Shown here: positions 14,765-58,636 of the stretch, piece by piece
How positions within the stretch are numbered: the first letter of the stretch is position 1
Layout: each line of letters starts with the position of its first letter
Source: Methanolobus psychrophilus R15
Lineage (GTDB): Archaea; Halobacteriota; Methanosarcinia; Methanosarcinales; Methanosarcinaceae
Direction: 5' to 3'
NCBI GenBank assembly: GCA_000306725.1
Contig: CP003083.1
Coordinates: 1,426,001 to 1,490,000, forward strand
DNA: 64,000 bases
The notes under the pieces: model-generated
The model's database searches: none
Told to the model about the DNA's origin: nothing
The model's input: only the letters and a program-made list of their open reading frames with translations
Made by a program: the position numbers and the translations under genes

Positions 14765-15625
14765 ATGTTCAAGGAACTGAACGATAAAAAGACTGATCTT
14801 AAAAAGCAGTCAGAAGATTACAAGGTAAAGAGGAATGAACTCAATGCAGAAGCAAGCACATTAGCCGCAAAGCGTAATGAGCTGAACAAAAAGACCAAGG
14901 ACCTTATCAACGAGGCGCAGGACTTCAAGAAGCTTCGTGACGAGAACAACGAGAAGGTCAAGGAATATAAGGTAATTCGTGACGATGTCAATGCAAAGGC
15001 AAACGACATATTTGCAAAGATAGACCAAATCCGCAATGAGAACAACATGAGCGGTCCTTCTATCAAGGACATACGCAAGGAAATCGACAGGCTCGAATTT
15101 GCCCAGCAGACAGAAGTTCTCACAACAAGTAAAGAGAGAGAGCTTGTTAGCAAGATTACCGATCTCCAAAAACAGTACGTTGCAAAGAAAGGACAGCTTG
15201 AAGGTAACCAGGAGCTCAAGCAGTTGCTGACCGAGGCCCAGGAAATAAGGGACCAGGCTTCAGAGCACCACAAGGTACTTTCCGAATTTGCCCAGAAAGC
15301 ACAGGAATATCATGACAAGATGATAACCACTTTCAAAGAGGCTGACAAGATACGTGCTGAATCCGACGCTGCTCACAAAGACTTTGTCAAGTTCCAGGAA
15401 AGCGCAGACGAGCAACACAAGCTCTTCATCGCAGCTCAGAAAGAGATCCGCGACATTGACAAGGAACTTCGCAAGATGAAGAAGGGCGATGTTGACGGGA
15501 AGAAAGAGGCTGCAAAGGCAGATGCTCGCAAGGATGCCGAGGATATTTTCGATAAATTCAAGTCCGGTGGCAAACTTACAACCGAGAACCTCATGGCTCT
15601 TCAGAGATCAGGACTTCTCAAGTAA
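14765..15625 (+). CDS. Archaeal coiled-coil protein (COG1340-like)
   Basis: The 286-residue product is almost entirely long charged helices with heptad-like spacing (repeated KKxxDL, RNELN and KxxRDE elements), from residue 1 to about 260. A short non-coiled tail (GGKLTTENLMALQRSGLLK) follows. It resembles conserved archaeal coiled-coil proteins of the COG1340 type, which often lie beside serB, as here. No enzyme motif is visible. Proposed links with chromosome or ribosome biology are unproven. GGGAGGATTAACAAGAT precedes the ATG and supplies the ribosome binding site. Confidence 0.82.
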   Translation: MFKELNDKKTDLKKQSEDYKVKRNELNAEASTLAAKRNELNKKTKDLINEAQDFKKLRDENNEKVKEYKVIRDDVNAKANDIFAKIDQIRNENNMSGPSIKDIRKEIDRLEFAQQTEVLTTSKERELVSKITDLQKQYVAKKGQLEGNQELKQLLTEAQEIRDQASEHHKVLSEFAQKAQEYHDKMITTFKEADKIRAESDAAHKDFVKFQESADEQHKLFIAAQKEIRDIDKELRKMKKGDVDGKKEAAKADARKDAEDIFDKFKSGGKLTTENLMALQRSGLLK

Positions 15626-16064: not shown

Positions 16065-16532
16065 ATGAATGTGGCAATCATTTCTACGATAAATGTAATA
16101 GAGCAACCGGAGCAGCAGGCCCTGTCTATCCGCACAACTATCCATTTCGACGATTACCCAAGAGTTGCTGGGCAAGCCTATGGAAGAATCATGGAGTATG
16201 CAGCTCGAAACGGCCTGCTGTTCTCCAGCGGCCCATTTGTATGCTACCATAATGCTGATCTTGAAAATCTGGATGTAGAAATGGGCTTCCCTGTTGCTAA
16301 ACCAGTGACAGGAGAAGGCGATATCATGGGACATGTTATTCCTGTCCAGAAAGCGGTGTCAGGCATATTCTTAGGTGCGTATACTGATACCGATCCGTTG
16401 ATGATGGAAATTATACAGTGGATAGCAGAACATGGTTATGAGCAACAAGGAGAGATATACAATTATTATCTAAATGATGAAGACCGCCCTGTAGGTGAAC
16501 TGCTTACACAGATTGTTGTGCCAATAAAATAG
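16065..16532 (+). CDS. GyrI-like / effector-binding domain protein
   Basis: The 155-residue product resembles the small-molecule-binding domain of the GyrI/AraC effector-binding family (SOUL-like barrel), with the pattern GRIMEYAARNGL, GPFVCYHNADLENLDVEMGF and IPVQKAVSGIFLGAYTDTDP. No DNA-binding domain is attached. Stand-alone members bind hydrophobic ligands or have cyclopropanoid hydrolase activity in some bacteria; the substrate here is unknown. The C-terminal GEIYNYYLNDEDRPVGELLTQI block is also typical. It lies between the decayed radical SAM copy and a small membrane gene, in a stretch that looks less conserved than its surroundings. Confidence 0.75.
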   Translation: MNVAIISTINVIEQPEQQALSIRTTIHFDDYPRVAGQAYGRIMEYAARNGLLFSSGPFVCYHNADLENLDVEMGFPVAKPVTGEGDIMGHVIPVQKAVSGIFLGAYTDTDPLMMEIIQWIAEHGYEQQGEIYNYYLNDEDRPVGELLTQIVVPIK

Positions 16533-17056: not shown

Positions 17057-18214
17057 TTATTTTTCCAGTCCGAGTTTTGATTGTCTGAAAGAAGTATCCC
17101 TCATAAGGCAGGGGCCTGCAGTAAAAAGAGGATCCTTGTATAACCTTTTCCATACAGATTCCAGAGATTCACTGTGGATGTTACCGTACGGCAGAGGCAT
17201 GCAGGCGCAGGGAAGGATATCCCCTTCGGGGGTTATGTGCAGCCATTTCCTTCCGGCAAAGCAGCCAAAACGCTTTACCATATGTGGTATCGGAAAGACC
17301 CTGGGTCCTTCCAGATCTGCCACCCTCGCTACAAAATCATCAAACCTTTGCAGGTCCTCTGCTGACAGCACTTCATCCTCATGTTCCAGCCAGCGACCAG
17401 TGGGCACTATCTCAAAGAAAGAGAGCTCATGAACGCCTGCCTTCTTCGCAAGTGAATAGAAATCATCCAGTTCCCTTATATTGAGCGGCGACAGCACCAC
17501 ATACATGTTTACTAGCAGGCCTGCTTCCAGACCATTATGGATAGCTGACATCGCCTCTCTGAAAACACCGGGACGACCACGCATATGATCGTGGCCTGTC
17601 TCGGTCGAACTGTCAAGGCTGACGCTGAGCATATACAGCCCTGCATCCTTAAGGCTTGCAGCCCGCTCTTTTGTAAGGCCCACGCCTGAAGTGAACAGGG
17701 CTGGAATGGCCTTTGTCTGGTCCACGTAACTGATGAGCTCCTCCAGTCCGTCATAGACAAGGGGCTCCCCCCCGTCAAAGATTATCAATGTTGTTCCAAG
17801 CTCTTGCGCCTGATCGATGACTGATCGCACAATTTCCGGCGACAGTTTTGCCTTGTTCCTGGTATCAGGAAGGGCGCAATGTATGCACTTATTGGGGCAG
17901 TCTTCAGTTATTGATATGGTGAGCTGCTCCGGAACGAAACGACCCCTCATAGCACTCATCTGGCTTGCAACAAGCCGGTCAAAGGCTTTACTTGGGACAG
18001 GAGGCATCCAGGTGGAATAGATTAGCCTGTCATTCTCCACTTTTGAAGGCTTTGTTCCCTCAAAGATCTCCAACATGCCAGATACGAATTTACCGGCTAT
18101 CGAAGAAGCCAGGCCCGAGGTGCCCATGCGCACTTTATTATTCTCCACCCTAGCATACACCTTAAATAAAGGGTTCCTGTAAAAGAAATACTTCTTCTGC
18201 ATACTCTTGTCCAT
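17057..18214 (-). CDS. Radical SAM/SPASM-type enzyme
   Basis: The 385-residue protein carries the radical SAM cluster motif CPNKCIHC (cysteines 106, 110, 113), the GGEP glycine motif in FDGGEPLVY, and C-terminal cysteines (RFGCFAGRK, LPCACMPLP, GPCLMRD) like those of SPASM or twitch auxiliary clusters. The N-terminal 95 residues have no familiar motif. It lies three bases after the reductase-like gene and is the last gene of a tight three-gene operon with the reductase and UbiA prenyltransferase. This suggests chemistry on a prenylated or ring-containing small molecule, or on a peptide. A decayed partial copy lies at 15734. The substrate is unknown. Confidence 0.88.
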   Translation of the reverse strand: MDKSMQKKYFFYRNPLFKVYARVENNKVRMGTSGLASSIAGKFVSGMLEIFEGTKPSKVENDRLIYSTWMPPVPSKAFDRLVASQMSAMRGRFVPEQLTISITEDCPNKCIHCALPDTRNKAKLSPEIVRSVIDQAQELGTTLIIFDGGEPLVYDGLEELISYVDQTKAIPALFTSGVGLTKERAASLKDAGLYMLSVSLDSSTETGHDHMRGRPGVFREAMSAIHNGLEAGLLVNMYVVLSPLNIRELDDFYSLAKKAGVHELSFFEIVPTGRWLEHEDEVLSAEDLQRFDDFVARVADLEGPRVFPIPHMVKRFGCFAGRKWLHITPEGDILPCACMPLPYGNIHSESLESVWKRLYKDPLFTAGPCLMRDTSFRQSKLGLEK

Positions 18215-18217
18215 GTA

Positions 18218-19375
18218 TTATTTTGTCCGCAGGATAGCCCGGTATGAGAGTAGTGCTGAGGGATTTTTCTTCAGGATCAGCCGGGATATCTGGACAGCCT
18301 GATTGAAGGAAGTTCCACCCAGAACCTTCAAATCCTCACCTTCAAAGACCTTCATCATCTCGTTTATCTCATTGTCGCTCATTTTCCGGAGTGTTTCAAG
18401 GGCAAACCTTCCAAGATAGTACTCTGTCCGGTAAGCCTCGTTCCATAATCTCCTATACTCTGAGAGCGCTCTTCTGGAAACATCTCCTTTTGCAATGGCA
18501 TCCGCGGCAACGTCACCGCACATCTGGCCGGCATGCATGCCATAACCTATTCCCGACTGACCTGCAGAGCCGCCAGTGAGCATGATACCATCAGCGACCA
18601 TATCACCAGGTATGGCTGCTATAGGGTCGCCACCAACTGAAGTGCTTATGATAGTAAGATTTTCTATGCCTTTGAGGGCTTTGAACCTTGCAACCCAGGC
18701 ATCGAAAAAGTCCGAAACGTCCCTTCCATGCCTGCGCACATATACTCCCAAAGTCGCACGATTGCCGCCGCAGGGAGAGTAAGTGGACTTCCAGCCGGGT
18801 GCATGGTTACCTACATAGTATTCGAACATGTCAGGCTCACCAATGCCCTCAGCTTCAACCTCAGCCTCCATGGCCCATGCAATGTCCTCAGGATGCTTCA
18901 GGGACCTGAGCCCCAGAAGGCCGGCTATCTTTGAGTTGATGCCATCTGACACGATGACAAGCCTGCATTTAAGTTTACCCCGGGAAGTGCTCAGGGTAAA
19001 ATAGTCCCCGGTCCTGAGGACATTATGCACCTCAACATCCATACGTATGTCAACTCCTGCATCCAAGGCCTGTTTTGCATAGAATTCATCGAACTTCCTG
19101 CGGTCAAGGAAATAGGATTCACCTTCGAATATGACCTCTCTGCCTGAAGGAGCAATGATGTGAGCGCCTTTGAGTGTCTTGATGACATAACTCTGGTCCA
19201 GGGTCTCGCCTGTCCTGTCAAACATGCCTTTGAAAAAGGTGTTCGCGGGGTGTGAAGGGATACCTGCTGCTTCCTTCCTGTCGAGCAGGATGACACTTCT
19301 GCCCTTTCGGGCGGCGTTCCTGGCTGCCATCATACCGGCAGAGGAAGCACCTATTACTATTATATCAGAATCCAT
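18218..19375 (-). CDS. Geranylgeranyl reductase-like FAD-dependent oxidoreductase
   Basis: The 385-residue flavoprotein starts with an FAD Rossmann motif, IIVIGASSAGMMAARNAARK, and has the second FAD-contact region in IMLTGGSAGQSGIGYGMHAG. Overall it matches the geranylgeranyl reductase family, which saturates isoprenoid double bonds, but the substrate-loop motif normally read as YxWxFP is replaced by a PGWKSTYSP segment. Archaeal GGRs act on archaeol lipids or quinone-like side chains. Its start overlaps the stop of the UbiA gene by one base, and the radical SAM gene follows three bases after its end, so the three are surely cotranscribed. Substrate assignment is inference. Confidence 0.88.
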   Translation of the reverse strand: MDSDIIVIGASSAGMMAARNAARKGRSVILLDRKEAAGIPSHPANTFFKGMFDRTGETLDQSYVIKTLKGAHIIAPSGREVIFEGESYFLDRRKFDEFYAKQALDAGVDIRMDVEVHNVLRTGDYFTLSTSRGKLKCRLVIVSDGINSKIAGLLGLRSLKHPEDIAWAMEAEVEAEGIGEPDMFEYYVGNHAPGWKSTYSPCGGNRATLGVYVRRHGRDVSDFFDAWVARFKALKGIENLTIISTSVGGDPIAAIPGDMVADGIMLTGGSAGQSGIGYGMHAGQMCGDVAADAIAKGDVSRRALSEYRRLWNEAYRTEYYLGRFALETLRKMSDNEINEMMKVFEGEDLKVLGGTSFNQAVQISRLILKKNPSALLSYRAILRTK

Positions 19376-20337
19376 TAGAATACCCCTGTTACCTGACTCA
19401 GTATTCCTGCATATCCAGGCAGGAGAATAGAAAGCACTACATCCAGTATAAGAGAACCAAACATTATTCCCCTATACCTTGAGCCCTGCAGGAAAAGCCT
19501 GCCTCCCCTCTCGGGAGTCGGCGTCCCTATAAAATCAAATGACTGAGAGAGCATCCAGCCGCCTCCAAGGAGCGCACCTGCGAAATAGACAGGACCTAGC
19601 CCTGCAGTCAAGCCTATTGCAAGAGATGCTATCACACCCACAATCCACATGAAAGTGACAAACTTTGCGGTCGCGGGTACTCCGAAGGTCACCGGGAACG
19701 TAGGAGCTCCTCTTTCACGATCCCCGACAACATCCCTTGCGACTCCCGACAATGTAAAACCCCAGTCTGTGAAGCACATCATCAGCCCCAGGAAGATAGC
19801 AGGCAGAGGAAGTATGGAGCCATAGTCGGGCTGTCTAAGGATGCCAGCAGGATCAAAAGCCAGCCAGATACCGATTGGTACGAGACCGTAGGCTATGCCC
19901 ACAGGCACAAAGCTCAGGAAGGTAGCCCTTTTTGCAACGGCCGAATAAACGCTGATGGTCGCCACGGCAATAACGAGCACTGTAAAGGATTCCGGATTGA
20001 GATACAGGGCCGCCGCGCTGGCTATCAGGAAAAGCAGGAGGGAGTATTTCAGGGCTTTATCCCTTGTGAGCCTGTCCGATACAAGAGGACGGTTTGGCAG
20101 GTTTATCTTGTCGATATCCATGTCACAGCAGTCATTGTATACATAGGAGCTTGTAATGGCTGCGTAACCTCCGATAACTGCGATAATGAATGGGATGAGA
20201 GGAGGGAGGGAGCCCGTTGCAAGATAGGCTGCCAGCAATGCACTTGCTGCAGGCAGTGCAAAATCCATGTCAGCTATTTCCGGGCGAAGCAGCTCTATAT
20301 AGGGATTCCTTGTTTTTGTATCGGAACTTGAAACCAT
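19375..20337 (-). CDS. UbiA-family prenyltransferase
   Basis: This integral membrane protein of about 320 residues has eight or nine hydrophobic helices and the two Asp-rich motifs of the UbiA superfamily: NDCCDMDID (residues about 68-76) and the region DVVGDRERGAP in the second half. UbiA enzymes transfer isoprenyl chains to aromatic or glycerol-phosphate acceptors. In this group the candidates are digeranylgeranylglyceryl phosphate synthesis, heme A/O-like reactions, or the prenylation step of methanophenazine. ATG 20337 is chosen over the in-frame GTG 20346 because GGTGAT sits at the right spacing ahead of it. It is the first gene of the operon with the reductase and radical SAM genes. Confidence 0.88.
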   Translation of the reverse strand: MVSSSDTKTRNPYIELLRPEIADMDFALPAASALLAAYLATGSLPPLIPFIIAVIGGYAAITSSYVYNDCCDMDIDKINLPNRPLVSDRLTRDKALKYSLLLFLIASAAALYLNPESFTVLVIAVATISVYSAVAKRATFLSFVPVGIAYGLVPIGIWLAFDPAGILRQPDYGSILPLPAIFLGLMMCFTDWGFTLSGVARDVVGDRERGAPTFPVTFGVPATAKFVTFMWIVGVIASLAIGLTAGLGPVYFAGALLGGGWMLSQSFDFIGTPTPERGGRLFLQGSRYRGIMFGSLILDVVLSILLPGYAGILSQVTGVF

Positions 20338-20448
20338 GTAAATCACCGGGGAGTTTTAATCCCTAATTTCCAGTATTATATATTAGTATTAGGGTCTTTA
20401 AAAAGACCCAAATACACTGCAGAAAAATTGACAGTCAACAGGCTACAA

Positions 20449-21918
20449 TCACGGATTGTGGCCAACGATTACCTGTACATTCGGGAGGCTCTCCAGTTTT
20501 TCCACCAGAGGGTGTCTGAATCTTTCCACCAGGAGATATGTGAACTCAGCTTCAGGATTGAGCTCTGCAAGCCTGATGGTATTGATATATGCCTGCTCCA
20601 GGGATTCGTGGTCATGAGTCCTTGGCACTTCCGCATTGAGAGGGTAAATCTCTGCAAGCTCCTGAGGATAGGATCCGAAGGGTGGTTTGAAGACCAGTAC
20701 GTTGTCATACCCGCTGTCAAGCTTTATGGGGGCCGGCCTGATAAGGGCTGAGCCGCGTATCGTGAAGCGTTCAAGCTGGTTAGCAAAGCGCAGTACCTCA
20801 GGCCTCTTAGCAGATTCAGGGCCGCAGTAGAAGAAAGTAGATTTGGAAGCAGGGTCCAGTTTCTCGAGCCACTCTGAGTGAGTGTACATCTGTTTGAGAG
20901 CTTCAAGCATGCGCGGATGTGAGCGGCAGCGCTGCTCCACGAGCTCCAGGAGGTTGCCTTCCCATATTGCCTGCTTTATGATGCGTATCTCTTCAAATGT
21001 GACGTAAAGGTTGTGCCTTGCAAGTAGTTCCGTGGAGTTGTGGGCTTTTTTAAGCTCTTCCGGGGAATGCTTCAGGCAGATGGGACATGAGCATGGGAGA
21101 TACTTCAGGTCGTCCACATGGTAAGTTCCCCTGCTTGTGATGTAACGCCGGTCCTTGGCATATAGCGCATATGCTGCCGAGTCGAAGAGGTCACACCCAA
21201 GCGCCACGGCCAGGGCGAACATCATGGGATGCCCGGCGCCGAACAAGTGTACGGGAGCTGTGGGGTCAAGTCCTTTCTTGGAGGCGGCAATGACATCCAC
21301 AAGGTCAGCATAGCGATATGATTCCATGAGCGGGACAACGGCACCGAAAGGATAGACATCAAAACCTGTTTCAGAGAGCGTTCTTGCACATCTTTCCCGC
21401 AACTGCATGTAGGAAGAACCCTGTACGGGGCCTGCCAGCAGCATATCCCCGGTCACAAGCTTCTTGGCTGCCTGCAGGCGCTCGATGGTAATGTCAAGTT
21501 CCTCGCTGGCACGCTCAAAGCTGACATCGGGAGGGCTCGGTATATCCAGCGGTACACCGATGTCACTGCCAATCTTCTGCTGGAAGTCTATTATCTGTTC
21601 ATTGGTGACCTCGACCTCGCCATATACCGAGAGCTGGAACGAACCCGAGTCTGTCATTATGGGACCGTCAAAATCAAGGAGCGAGTGAAGGCCGTCTTTC
21701 AGGGCTTTCTCTCTCAGTTCATCCTTGCGGTAAATGATGTAGGAGTTAGTGATCAGTATCTGAGCCCCAAAGTCCCTCATCTCTGAGGGTTTTATCGTCT
21801 GGATATTGGGGTTGATCACTGGCATGACCGTGGGAGTCTCCACAACGCCATGGGGTGTTGTAAGCCTGCCTATACGGCCTGCTGTGTCCTTATGGATAAT
21901 ATCGAATCGTGATGACAT
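20449..21918 (-). CDS. tgtA: tRNA-guanine(15) transglycosylase (archaeosine synthesis)
   Basis: The 489-residue enzyme exchanges guanine 15 of archaeal tRNAs for preQ0, the first tRNA step of archaeosine formation. The TIM-barrel catalytic domain shows MTDSGSFQLSVYG (catalytic aspartate), the SPPDVSFERA region and the zinc site CSCPICLKH with a later histidine. A C-terminal part of about 150 residues follows the barrel, but no clear PUA domain closes the protein, so a separate partner with the PUA domain is likely encoded elsewhere, as in other Methanosarcinales. It diverges from the CNNM-like gene, with about 260 bases of AT-rich sequence between them. Confidence 0.94.
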   Translation of the reverse strand: MSSRFDIIHKDTAGRIGRLTTPHGVVETPTVMPVINPNIQTIKPSEMRDFGAQILITNSYIIYRKDELREKALKDGLHSLLDFDGPIMTDSGSFQLSVYGEVEVTNEQIIDFQQKIGSDIGVPLDIPSPPDVSFERASEELDITIERLQAAKKLVTGDMLLAGPVQGSSYMQLRERCARTLSETGFDVYPFGAVVPLMESYRYADLVDVIAASKKGLDPTAPVHLFGAGHPMMFALAVALGCDLFDSAAYALYAKDRRYITSRGTYHVDDLKYLPCSCPICLKHSPEELKKAHNSTELLARHNLYVTFEEIRIIKQAIWEGNLLELVEQRCRSHPRMLEALKQMYTHSEWLEKLDPASKSTFFYCGPESAKRPEVLRFANQLERFTIRGSALIRPAPIKLDSGYDNVLVFKPPFGSYPQELAEIYPLNAEVPRTHDHESLEQAYINTIRLAELNPEAEFTYLLVERFRHPLVEKLESLPNVQVIVGHNP

Positions 21919-57013: not shown

Positions 57014-58636
57014 TTAAGGCCGTTTAAAGAACATTATTCCAAAGAGTATGATAGCACTGGTGAATCCGATTATCCCAAGTGCAGGCAGATACCCGGTTCC
57101 GCAGACTGACAGGTAGGCTGAGGACACAAGGATAGCCAGCAGGAAGACATATTTAAAAATGGTATCTATTGTCCTGTATCTCTTGATTTCACTGCTCTTC
57201 TTCTCCAGCTTCTCGATCCTGTAGCCTCTTATAGTCTCGATGACATCGTTAACGCCCTGCGGGAGGTTCTTGATTATGTCAAGATATCTGTCTCCTTCCA
57301 GTTGCAGGTATTCAGCCGCCTCGAAGGGAGAATATCGCTTTATAAAAACCTGCATTATAACAGGCTTGGCATCTTCCAGCAAATTGAACTTCGGATCAAG
57401 TTCCAGACAATTAGCTTCGATGAGTATCAAAGCCCTCTCAAGGGTCGAGAACTCACTGGGAAGAGAAAGGTTATACTTAAGCCCCAAAGTAGCATAGTTG
57501 TCACTCTGCCTTTCGCCAACGGAGTAATTCTGTTTGGAGATAATATCATCAAGGTCTATCTTGAAACGACGGACATCAATGTCTTCTTTGTTTATCCCGG
57601 ATATTTTCAGAAAAGCCTCAAAGACTATGTCTACTTTCTTTTTGTATATCCCATAAAAAAGGTTGAGCATATTGCGGCGCAACTCATCGTCAATAGCGCC
57701 TACTGCTCCAAAATCAATGTAGGCTATTCCATCTTTCTGGATGAGTATGTTAGAACTATGCGGGTCTGCATGATAGAAACCGTCAATATAGACCTGTTTA
57801 AGATAACTGGTACTGATGAGCTTTGCATACCATTTCTTCTTCTCTTCCGGGATCTGTGAAAGCTTCCTGATGGGTATGCCTTCCATGTAATCCATGATCA
57901 GGACATTCTCATTGGAGAAGTCATCATAGACTCCCGGTACATGTATCTCCTCTACGCCCTCAAAGTTGTTCCTGAAACGCTTAAGATTCCTTGCTTCGTT
58001 CCTCAGGTCCAGTTCCCTGTTAAAGACATCCTTGAACTCGAAAAGGAAGGCATCCATGTCAAAATTACTACCCAGGCCAAGCGCTCTAACTATGACGGGC
58101 TTCAAGTCGTCCAGTATGGCAAGGTCCTGATTGATAATATTGATAAGATTGGGCTTTGTTATTTTTACAGCAACTTTCTTGCCATCATATACAGCTTCAT
58201 ATACCTGTGCTATTGAAGCGCAGGCAATGGGAGCAGTATTGAACTCATCGAATATCGTAAGTATGTCAAAATCATCCTTTCCCGGAGTATCCGCATCCAA
58301 TGGCTTACAACTAAGTCCGTTGAAGGCGACCTTCATGAACTCGAAATCAACCCTTTTTACATTGTCCTGAAGATGAGACAACTCCTCCACATATATGGCA
58401 GGGACAATGTCCGGCCTTTTACTCAGCATCTGTCCGAGCTTGACAAATGTGGGCCCAAGTTCCTCAAGTGCCATTCTCAGGTTTTCAGCATTCTTCCTGA
58501 TCCTAATATCTGCAACGCATAGATTGCGTTTATTTGAAACATAATAATTGTTGACTTCGGTGTAGAGAATGCTGAAAAGGCCATACTTGTAGAATACCCT
58601 GGAAATAGTAATGTACCTGCGGAGTTTTTTGAACAT
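57014..58636 (-). CDS. AarF/UbiB-type (ABC1) atypical kinase
   Basis: The 540-residue membrane-associated protein belongs to the ABC1/UbiB family. The family KxGQ motif appears as GPTFVKLGQMLSKRPDIVP near residue 62; ACASIAQVYEA is the altered nucleotide loop, and FYHADPHSSNILI with YIDFGAVG gives the catalytic and metal sites. Two hydrophobic helices close the protein (about 495-535). Bacterial and eukaryotic members support ubiquinone synthesis; in methanogens without quinones the target may be another lipid, such as methanophenazine, but this is inference. The gene is alone between the ribosomal terminator and the cobalt/nickel cluster. Confidence 0.9.
   Translation of the reverse strand: MFKKLRRYITISRVFYKYGLFSILYTEVNNYYVSNKRNLCVADIRIRKNAENLRMALEELGPTFVKLGQMLSKRPDIVPAIYVEELSHLQDNVKRVDFEFMKVAFNGLSCKPLDADTPGKDDFDILTIFDEFNTAPIACASIAQVYEAVYDGKKVAVKITKPNLINIINQDLAILDDLKPVIVRALGLGSNFDMDAFLFEFKDVFNRELDLRNEARNLKRFRNNFEGVEEIHVPGVYDDFSNENVLIMDYMEGIPIRKLSQIPEEKKKWYAKLISTSYLKQVYIDGFYHADPHSSNILIQKDGIAYIDFGAVGAIDDELRRNMLNLFYGIYKKKVDIVFEAFLKISGINKEDIDVRRFKIDLDDIISKQNYSVGERQSDNYATLGLKYNLSLPSEFSTLERALILIEANCLELDPKFNLLEDAKPVIMQVFIKRYSPFEAAEYLQLEGDRYLDIIKNLPQGVNDVIETIRGYRIEKLEKKSSEIKRYRTIDTIFKYVFLLAILVSSAYLSVCGTGYLPALGIIGFTSAIILFGIMFFKRP

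Follow-up and report, generated by a model that had tools for sequence, protein, structure and literature searches.

A window of 64,000 nucleotides from the complete 3.07-Mb genome of Methanolobus psychrophilus R15 (G000, C1:1426001-1490000) was analyzed, and positions are those of the window unless a C1 coordinate is given. Three genes spanned 17057-20337 on the minus strand, in the order UbiA-GGR-rSAM1. The first encoded a UbiA-family membrane prenyltransferase (19375-20337, 320 aa, PF01040) that starts from the ATG at 20337 or possibly from a GTG at 20346 in the same frame. It was followed by a GGR-like FAD-dependent flavoprotein (18218-19375, 385 aa), recognized by models of the FAD/GGR superfamily, and by a radical SAM/SPASM enzyme, rSAM1 (17057-18214, 385 aa, PF04055 and PF13186). 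The start of GGR and the stop of UbiA had one base in common, and three bases separated the GGR stop from rSAM1. The tight three-gene operon described in an earlier sequence-only reading was confirmed in its coordinates, spacing, Pfam domains and catalytic motifs. A UbiB-like kinase suggested there as a partner is a genuine PF03109 protein (57014-58636, 188.7 bits) but lies 37 kb away, and no link with the operon was found.

The same-strand order UbiA-GGR-rSAM1 recurred in 64 retrieved loci, nearly all from Methanosarcinaceae (a few genomes were taken twice in this count), and such repetition indicates that the arrangement is not due to chance. The operon proteins were 95-98% identical to those of Methanolobus sp. 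Soudan_28 and C1_concoct.bin.76. In M. acetivorans (G150) the three genes lie at C1:5456620-5460020. In Methanothrix/Methanotrichaceae, ANME-2 and a further family (f6), all three genes were present and partly dispersed, with UbiA and GGR of ANME-2 adjoining or a few kb apart and rSAM1 located elsewhere. A neighborhood search around rSAM1 of ANME-2 and Methanothrix gave no convincing candidate for further shared pathway genes.

The window UbiA matched PF01040 with 140.6 bits and met the criteria of the UbiA superfamily, both motifs being intact (NDCCDMDID for NDxxDxxxD, DVVGD for DxxxD). It remained under all NCBIfam cut-offs, the best match being PRK12884 (104 of 269 bits). Five UbiA genes were found in the window genome; the one of the operon was single copy and co-distributed with GGR and rSAM1. 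Its closest solved structure was the DGGGP synthase 6M31. Strong orthology to DGGGP synthase would have refuted the proposal of the sequence-only reading that the operon is a candidate for methanophenazine synthesis, and was ruled out: the window UbiA scored 80.4 bits against a profile cut-off of 296, and a separate gene of the genome (C1:1274994) exceeded that cut-off with 366.4 bits. The UbiA tree alone gave no information, the paralogues being too distant and long branches being flagged.

The GGR-like protein aligned with the full TIGR02032 profile at 120.3 bits, under the cut-off of 158.8. Judged by its sequence it is a divergent relative of this superfamily, for which prenyl reduction is inferred. 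The nearest solved structure was 3OZ2, a digeranylgeranylglycerophospholipid reductase. Among the five GGR-superfamily genes of the window genome, the archaeol-type GGR (C1:2457235) was orthologous in the tree to a gene of genome G150 that adjoins a ferredoxin gene, a neighborhood matching the published description for M. acetivorans. The window GGR formed its own well-supported clade, apart from that of archaeol GGR (MA1484-type), and the latter clade was also found in lineages devoid of the operon. An identity with archaeol GGR, which would likewise have undone the proposal, was ruled out by both score and tree placement.

These likenesses to archaeol enzymes raise the possibility of a structural membrane lipid, such as a variant of archaeol or hydroxyarchaeol, being made or modified by the operon: UbiA would attach a chain to an acceptor of glycerol type, which GGR would saturate and the radical SAM enzyme would modify. 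The superfamilies of UbiA and GGR do include the archaeol enzymes, the closest solved structures (6M31 and 3OZ2) are of such enzymes, and archaeal tetraethers are made by radical SAM enzymes (PMC9385802). However, the two archaeol steps are served in the window genome by genes of their own, one for DGGGP synthase and one for a GGR of the type of MA1484 in M. acetivorans, and the persistence of the archaeol-GGR clade where the operon is missing also speaks against such a product.

In Pfam, rSAM1 matched Radical_SAM (75.1 bits) and SPASM (31.5 bits), and it displayed the CX3CX2C motif (CPNKCIHC) along with the SPASM cysteines, fulfilling the criteria for a radical SAM/SPASM enzyme. It shares this core and these cysteines with AhbD, NirJ, BlsE and PqqE, which provided the nearest profiles and structures. 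It differs from them by reaching only about a quarter of the equivalog scores (no NCBIfam equivalog fits, the nearest being AhbD/NirJ2 with 125 of 500 bits), by an additional N-terminal region of about 90 residues, and by occurring as three co-distributed paralogues per organism. The predicted structure was of good confidence (pLDDT 87.5); the RiPP maturases SkfB, CteB and SuiB matched its fold, as did BlsE, MoaA and PqqE alike, and structure therefore does not select a reaction. Those maturase matches, and the first elements of the model (three strands and a helix, reminiscent of an RRE domain), could point to a peptide (RiPP) maturase whose association with UbiA and GGR is incidental or reflects a prenylated peptide cofactor. 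This explanation deserves hardly any credence: no PqqD/RRE domain was detected by Pfam, a rough check recognized no conserved small ORF or RiPP precursor beside or downstream of rSAM1, and TM-scores of about 0.6 are what this superfamily gives in general, with MoaA, PqqE and BlsE at the same level.

In the tree, rSAM1 was one of three paralogues (rSAM1, rSAM2 and rSAM3) forming a dedicated archaeal subfamily. In a phylum-wide search around locus L150, labelled Bathyarchaeota, this rSAM family occurred in no other of the 397 genomes, and the four weak matches were longer proteins of a different kind. In the window genome rSAM3 was unlinked, and rSAM2 (C1:2396822) accompanied the gene for geranylfarnesyl-PP (GFPP) synthase (C1:2395892, family NF040627), outside the operon. 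A position of rSAM2 directly behind GFPP synthase was found in 16/16 genomes checked, from Methanosarcinaceae, Methanotrichaceae and the MAG G076 (the pairing in G198 was judged by coordinates); the synthase copies of G150 and G157 exceeded the NF040627 cut-off. GFPP synthase (MM_0789), which supplies the C25 chain of methanophenazine, is the only enzyme tied to this carrier in the literature covered (PMC3017947). Pairing of rSAM2 with the C25 synthase of a respiratory lipid is a further argument against a structural one.

Heme genes near the rSAM2-GFPP synthase pair (PMC3017947), the proximity of rSAM1 to AhbD/NirJ2, and a score of the window UbiA against heme O synthase of 77.6 bits, under the cut-off of 210.3, would be in line with a different product, a prenylated or modified heme for cytochromes, made by a heme-O-like UbiA and an AhbD-like radical SAM enzyme. 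A C25 synthase would be an unexpected partner for a farnesyl heme, however, and an AhbD-like gene exists separately (L072:7100-8155). Use of cytochromes has been reported for Methanoperedens (PMC4683180), and yet it lacks all three genes, as described below, which leaves a heme product extremely improbable.

In a survey of 238 genomes across the class Methanosarcinia, rSAM1, UbiA and GGR occurred in Methanosarcinaceae (f1, including ANME-3 and rumen forms), in two ANME-2 lineages (f3 and f4, by inference a/b and c, respectively), in f6 and in Methanotrichaceae (f7). Scattered absences within these carrier families concerned mostly incomplete MAGs, and some near-complete Methanotrichaceae genomes missed one gene at the thresholds applied (e.g., GGR in G227). 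All three genes were absent from family f2 (6/6 genomes) and from genus g25 of family f5 (33 genomes), as were rSAM2 and rSAM3. The McrA-family protein of an f2 genome (G008) was identical to the ethyl-CoM reductase 7B1S, which designates f2 as ethane oxidizers. The McrA of f5 was closest to 9QQT and 9QR1; by inference, f5 corresponds to Methanoperedenaceae and g25 was taken as Methanoperedens.

The menaquinone enzyme MqnC exceeded its curated cut-off in 13/13 genomes of f5-g25, in 4/6 of the ethane oxidizers (the two genomes without a match were 56-61% complete) and in 2/2 of f11, and in none of the 26 operon carriers tested. HPLC of Methanoperedens biomass revealed menaquinone-type peaks and no methanophenazine, and menaquinone-type genes were likewise present (PMC4683180); use of methanophenazine has been inferred for ANME-2a/b/c and ANME-3 (PMC9012536). 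The genes occurred where use of methanophenazine is reported or expected and were absent from Methanoperedens and the ethane oxidizers, the menaquinone users of the same class; the co-occurrence anticipated for a methanophenazine pathway was obtained. This presence/absence profile represents one or two evolutionary losses, and its counts are not independent events. No orthologue was found in the other sampled families of the phylum, save in one MAG (G308), whose rSAM clustered in the tree with that of ANME-2c, a finding interpreted as misbinning or transfer.

The futalosine-type menaquinone (Mqn) pathway of Methanoperedens and Archaeoglobus resembles the operon in that a prenylated aromatic carrier is obtained via radical SAM enzymes (MqnC/MqnE) and a UbiA-type prenyltransferase, and the saturated tail produced in Archaeoglobus is an additional likeness to the putative operon product. 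It is distinguished by the radical SAM enzymes themselves, rSAM1-3 being SPASM enzymes of a different family, and by the lack of MqnC in the operon carriers tested. Within the class, the Mqn pathway appears to be the functional replacement of the operon. The operon is swapped for MqnC and not for another lipid gene, and, with the evidence above, a structural lipid is very unlikely as its product.

Another genus of f5 (g27) was represented by G076, a MAG 67% complete, which kept the operon and the GFPP synthase-rSAM2 pair and had no MqnC. About 75 bases past its operon were found the small and large subunits of a TAT-type [NiFe]-hydrogenase, a cytochrome b and a maturation protease, an arrangement shared with the methanophenazine-reducing Vht hydrogenase. 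A dedicated C25 synthase was missing in ANME-2a/b (4/4 genomes), though all three operon genes were present, so that another chain or synthase must serve there. Publications dating from 2015 to 2021 describe the methanophenazine pathway as unknown (PMC4683180, PMC8546582), and in 2015 genomes could not be mined for its synthesis for that reason (PMC4683180). No assignment of a methanophenazine gene beyond GFPP synthase was found in the literature; subscription papers and preprints were not covered, and prior publication cannot be excluded.

The observed distribution, the non-archaeol identity of the proteins and the genomic links to GFPP synthase and to Vht-type genes make it likely that the operon belongs to the methanophenazine pathway, as the sequence-only reading had proposed, and we hold this with good confidence. 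The sequence-based checks suggested by that reading were carried out, and its proposal was refuted by none of them. None of the three genes has a demonstrated product or activity, and the biochemical roles that came with the proposal remain inferences. UbiA would move the C25 chain of geranylfarnesyl diphosphate, in the membrane, onto a hydroxyphenazine or a precursor of it. This assignment as a C25 (geranylfarnesyl) transferase, on balance favored though far from secure, rests on the family, the intact motifs and the precedent of Mpz10 from Streptomyces, a UbiA-type membrane enzyme prenylating 1,6-dihydroxyphenazine (PMC4044012). Mpz10 differs from the window UbiA by its strict use of DMAPP (C5), by its motif NALADRWED and by its place in bacterial secondary metabolism.

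The GGR-like flavoprotein would then saturate the ether-proximal double bond and so produce a 2,3-dihydropentaprenyl tail. The methanophenazine tail is established to have this structure; together with the superfamily it is the basis for the putative reductase role, which we consider somewhat probable. rSAM1, rSAM2 and rSAM3 may act on the ring system by radical chemistry that needs no oxygen. The nearest families of rSAM1, AhbD, NirJ and BlsE, remove carboxyl groups or side chains or oxidize rings, and one of these reactions might apply here, a guess that could easily prove wrong. No gene was identified for the assembly of the phenazine ring.

Beyond the class, a related seven-gene set was found in Ca. 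Methanohalarchaeum HMET1 (Methanonatronarchaeia) and in non-methanogenic Methanocellales including Met12 (G242, 1,067,436 bp). It comprised an NMT1-like protein, a divergent UbiA-like protein, three rSAM homologues, one shorter rSAM and a GGR homologue. In the rSAM tree, obtained from a single quick search, rSAM3 grouped with set member a, and rSAM1 with rSAM2, and b with c, formed two separate pairs. The UbiA-like protein of the set had no canonical motifs, the search for a Methanosarcinia counterpart of the cytoplasmic NMT1-like protein returned only general transporter-type relatives (21-27% identity), and the set-bearing lineages possessed general prenyl synthases only, without a dedicated C25 synthase. 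HdrDE, Fpo and VhtC are missing from Met12, for which the published model includes no membrane carrier (PMC11176372); with the related set present in such an organism, the family may also serve another lipid.

The operon could accordingly make another prenylated redox carrier or a modified methanophenazine, in which case the set of Met12 and Methanohalarchaeum would make the ancestral carrier. The divergent UbiA-like protein, the NMT1-like protein without a counterpart, and the lack of a dedicated C25 synthase both in the set lineages and in ANME-2a/b are all compatible with that. Within the class, in contrast, the profile and the GFPP synthase pairing fit methanophenazine, to our knowledge the only such carrier there, and a different carrier is highly improbable.

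In Methanosarcinales, acetate-using methanogens among them, respiratory electrons travel via methanophenazine, which is probably the electron carrier in ANME-2 as well. With a gene set so sharply distributed, a direct genetic test of its pathway becomes possible. The set would also allow uncultured archaea that use methanophenazine to be recognized from their genomes, and it implies a carrier in Met12 and similar organisms, for which none has been proposed. More tentatively, and short of what we would call probable, the so far unnamed radical SAM/SPASM trio may represent a widespread and ancient archaeal route to phenazine-type membrane carriers, present in Methanosarcinia, Methanonatronarchaeia and Methanocellales such as Met12, and swapped for menaquinone in Methanoperedens and the ethane oxidizers.

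The candidate methanophenazine-synthesis operon is preceded, just upstream and on the same strand, by the gene for the tRNA-guanine transglycosylase TgtA (window 20449-21918), which also lay 5' of the operon at several further Methanosarcinaceae loci; we know of no functional connection between the two. Downstream of the operon were found a conserved DUF7121 coiled-coil protein (window 14765-15625) and an orphan GyrI-like small-molecule-binding protein (window 16065-16532). The ABC1/UbiB-family kinase (PF03109; window 57014-58636) was encoded 37 kb off the operon, and adjoined an ABC transporter ATPase.

In a 5,751,492 bp genome that is probably M. acetivorans (G150; loci L269 and L270), the geranylfarnesyl diphosphate (GFPP, C25) synthase cut-off was passed by a gene at 5.066 Mb, adjoining ATP synthase. 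A paralogue at 0.711 Mb, scoring 139 bits against the same profile, adjoined an apparent isopentenyl phosphate kinase gene and may be the lipid GGPP synthase. It is probably MA0606 (number inferred from its position), named as the GFPP synthase homologue in PMC8546582. Genomes G011, G017, G021 and G025, inferred to be ANME-2a/b (family f3), harbored the operon genes and no dedicated C25 synthase, and methanophenazine of this group may have a different chain length.

The genome G076 (L052, L274), from a Methanoperedenaceae-grade genus, retained the operon, the GFPP synthase gene with the adjacent radical SAM paralogue rSAM2, and Vht-type hydrogenase genes. The menaquinone-pathway marker MqnC was not detected in this 67% complete MAG, which possibly represents a methanophenazine-using relative of Methanoperedens.

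Outside Methanosarcinia, a seven-gene set encoded four radical SAM proteins (one of them shorter), a GGR homologue, a divergent UbiA-like protein and a cytoplasmic NMT1-like protein. It was found in Met12, a non-methanogenic member of Methanocellales (G242; L076:4837-12546), in Methanohalarchaeum (L154, L125) and at further loci (L074, L077, L128). A 9.9 kb contig labelled Bathyarchaeota (L150; DAOWHM010000117.1) also carried the complete set, at 63-75% identity to Met12; apart from this locus, the radical SAM family was found in none of 397 sampled genomes of that phylum, and we read its occurrence there as misbinning or transfer. The seven-gene set is possibly a carrier pathway of small non-methanogen genomes.
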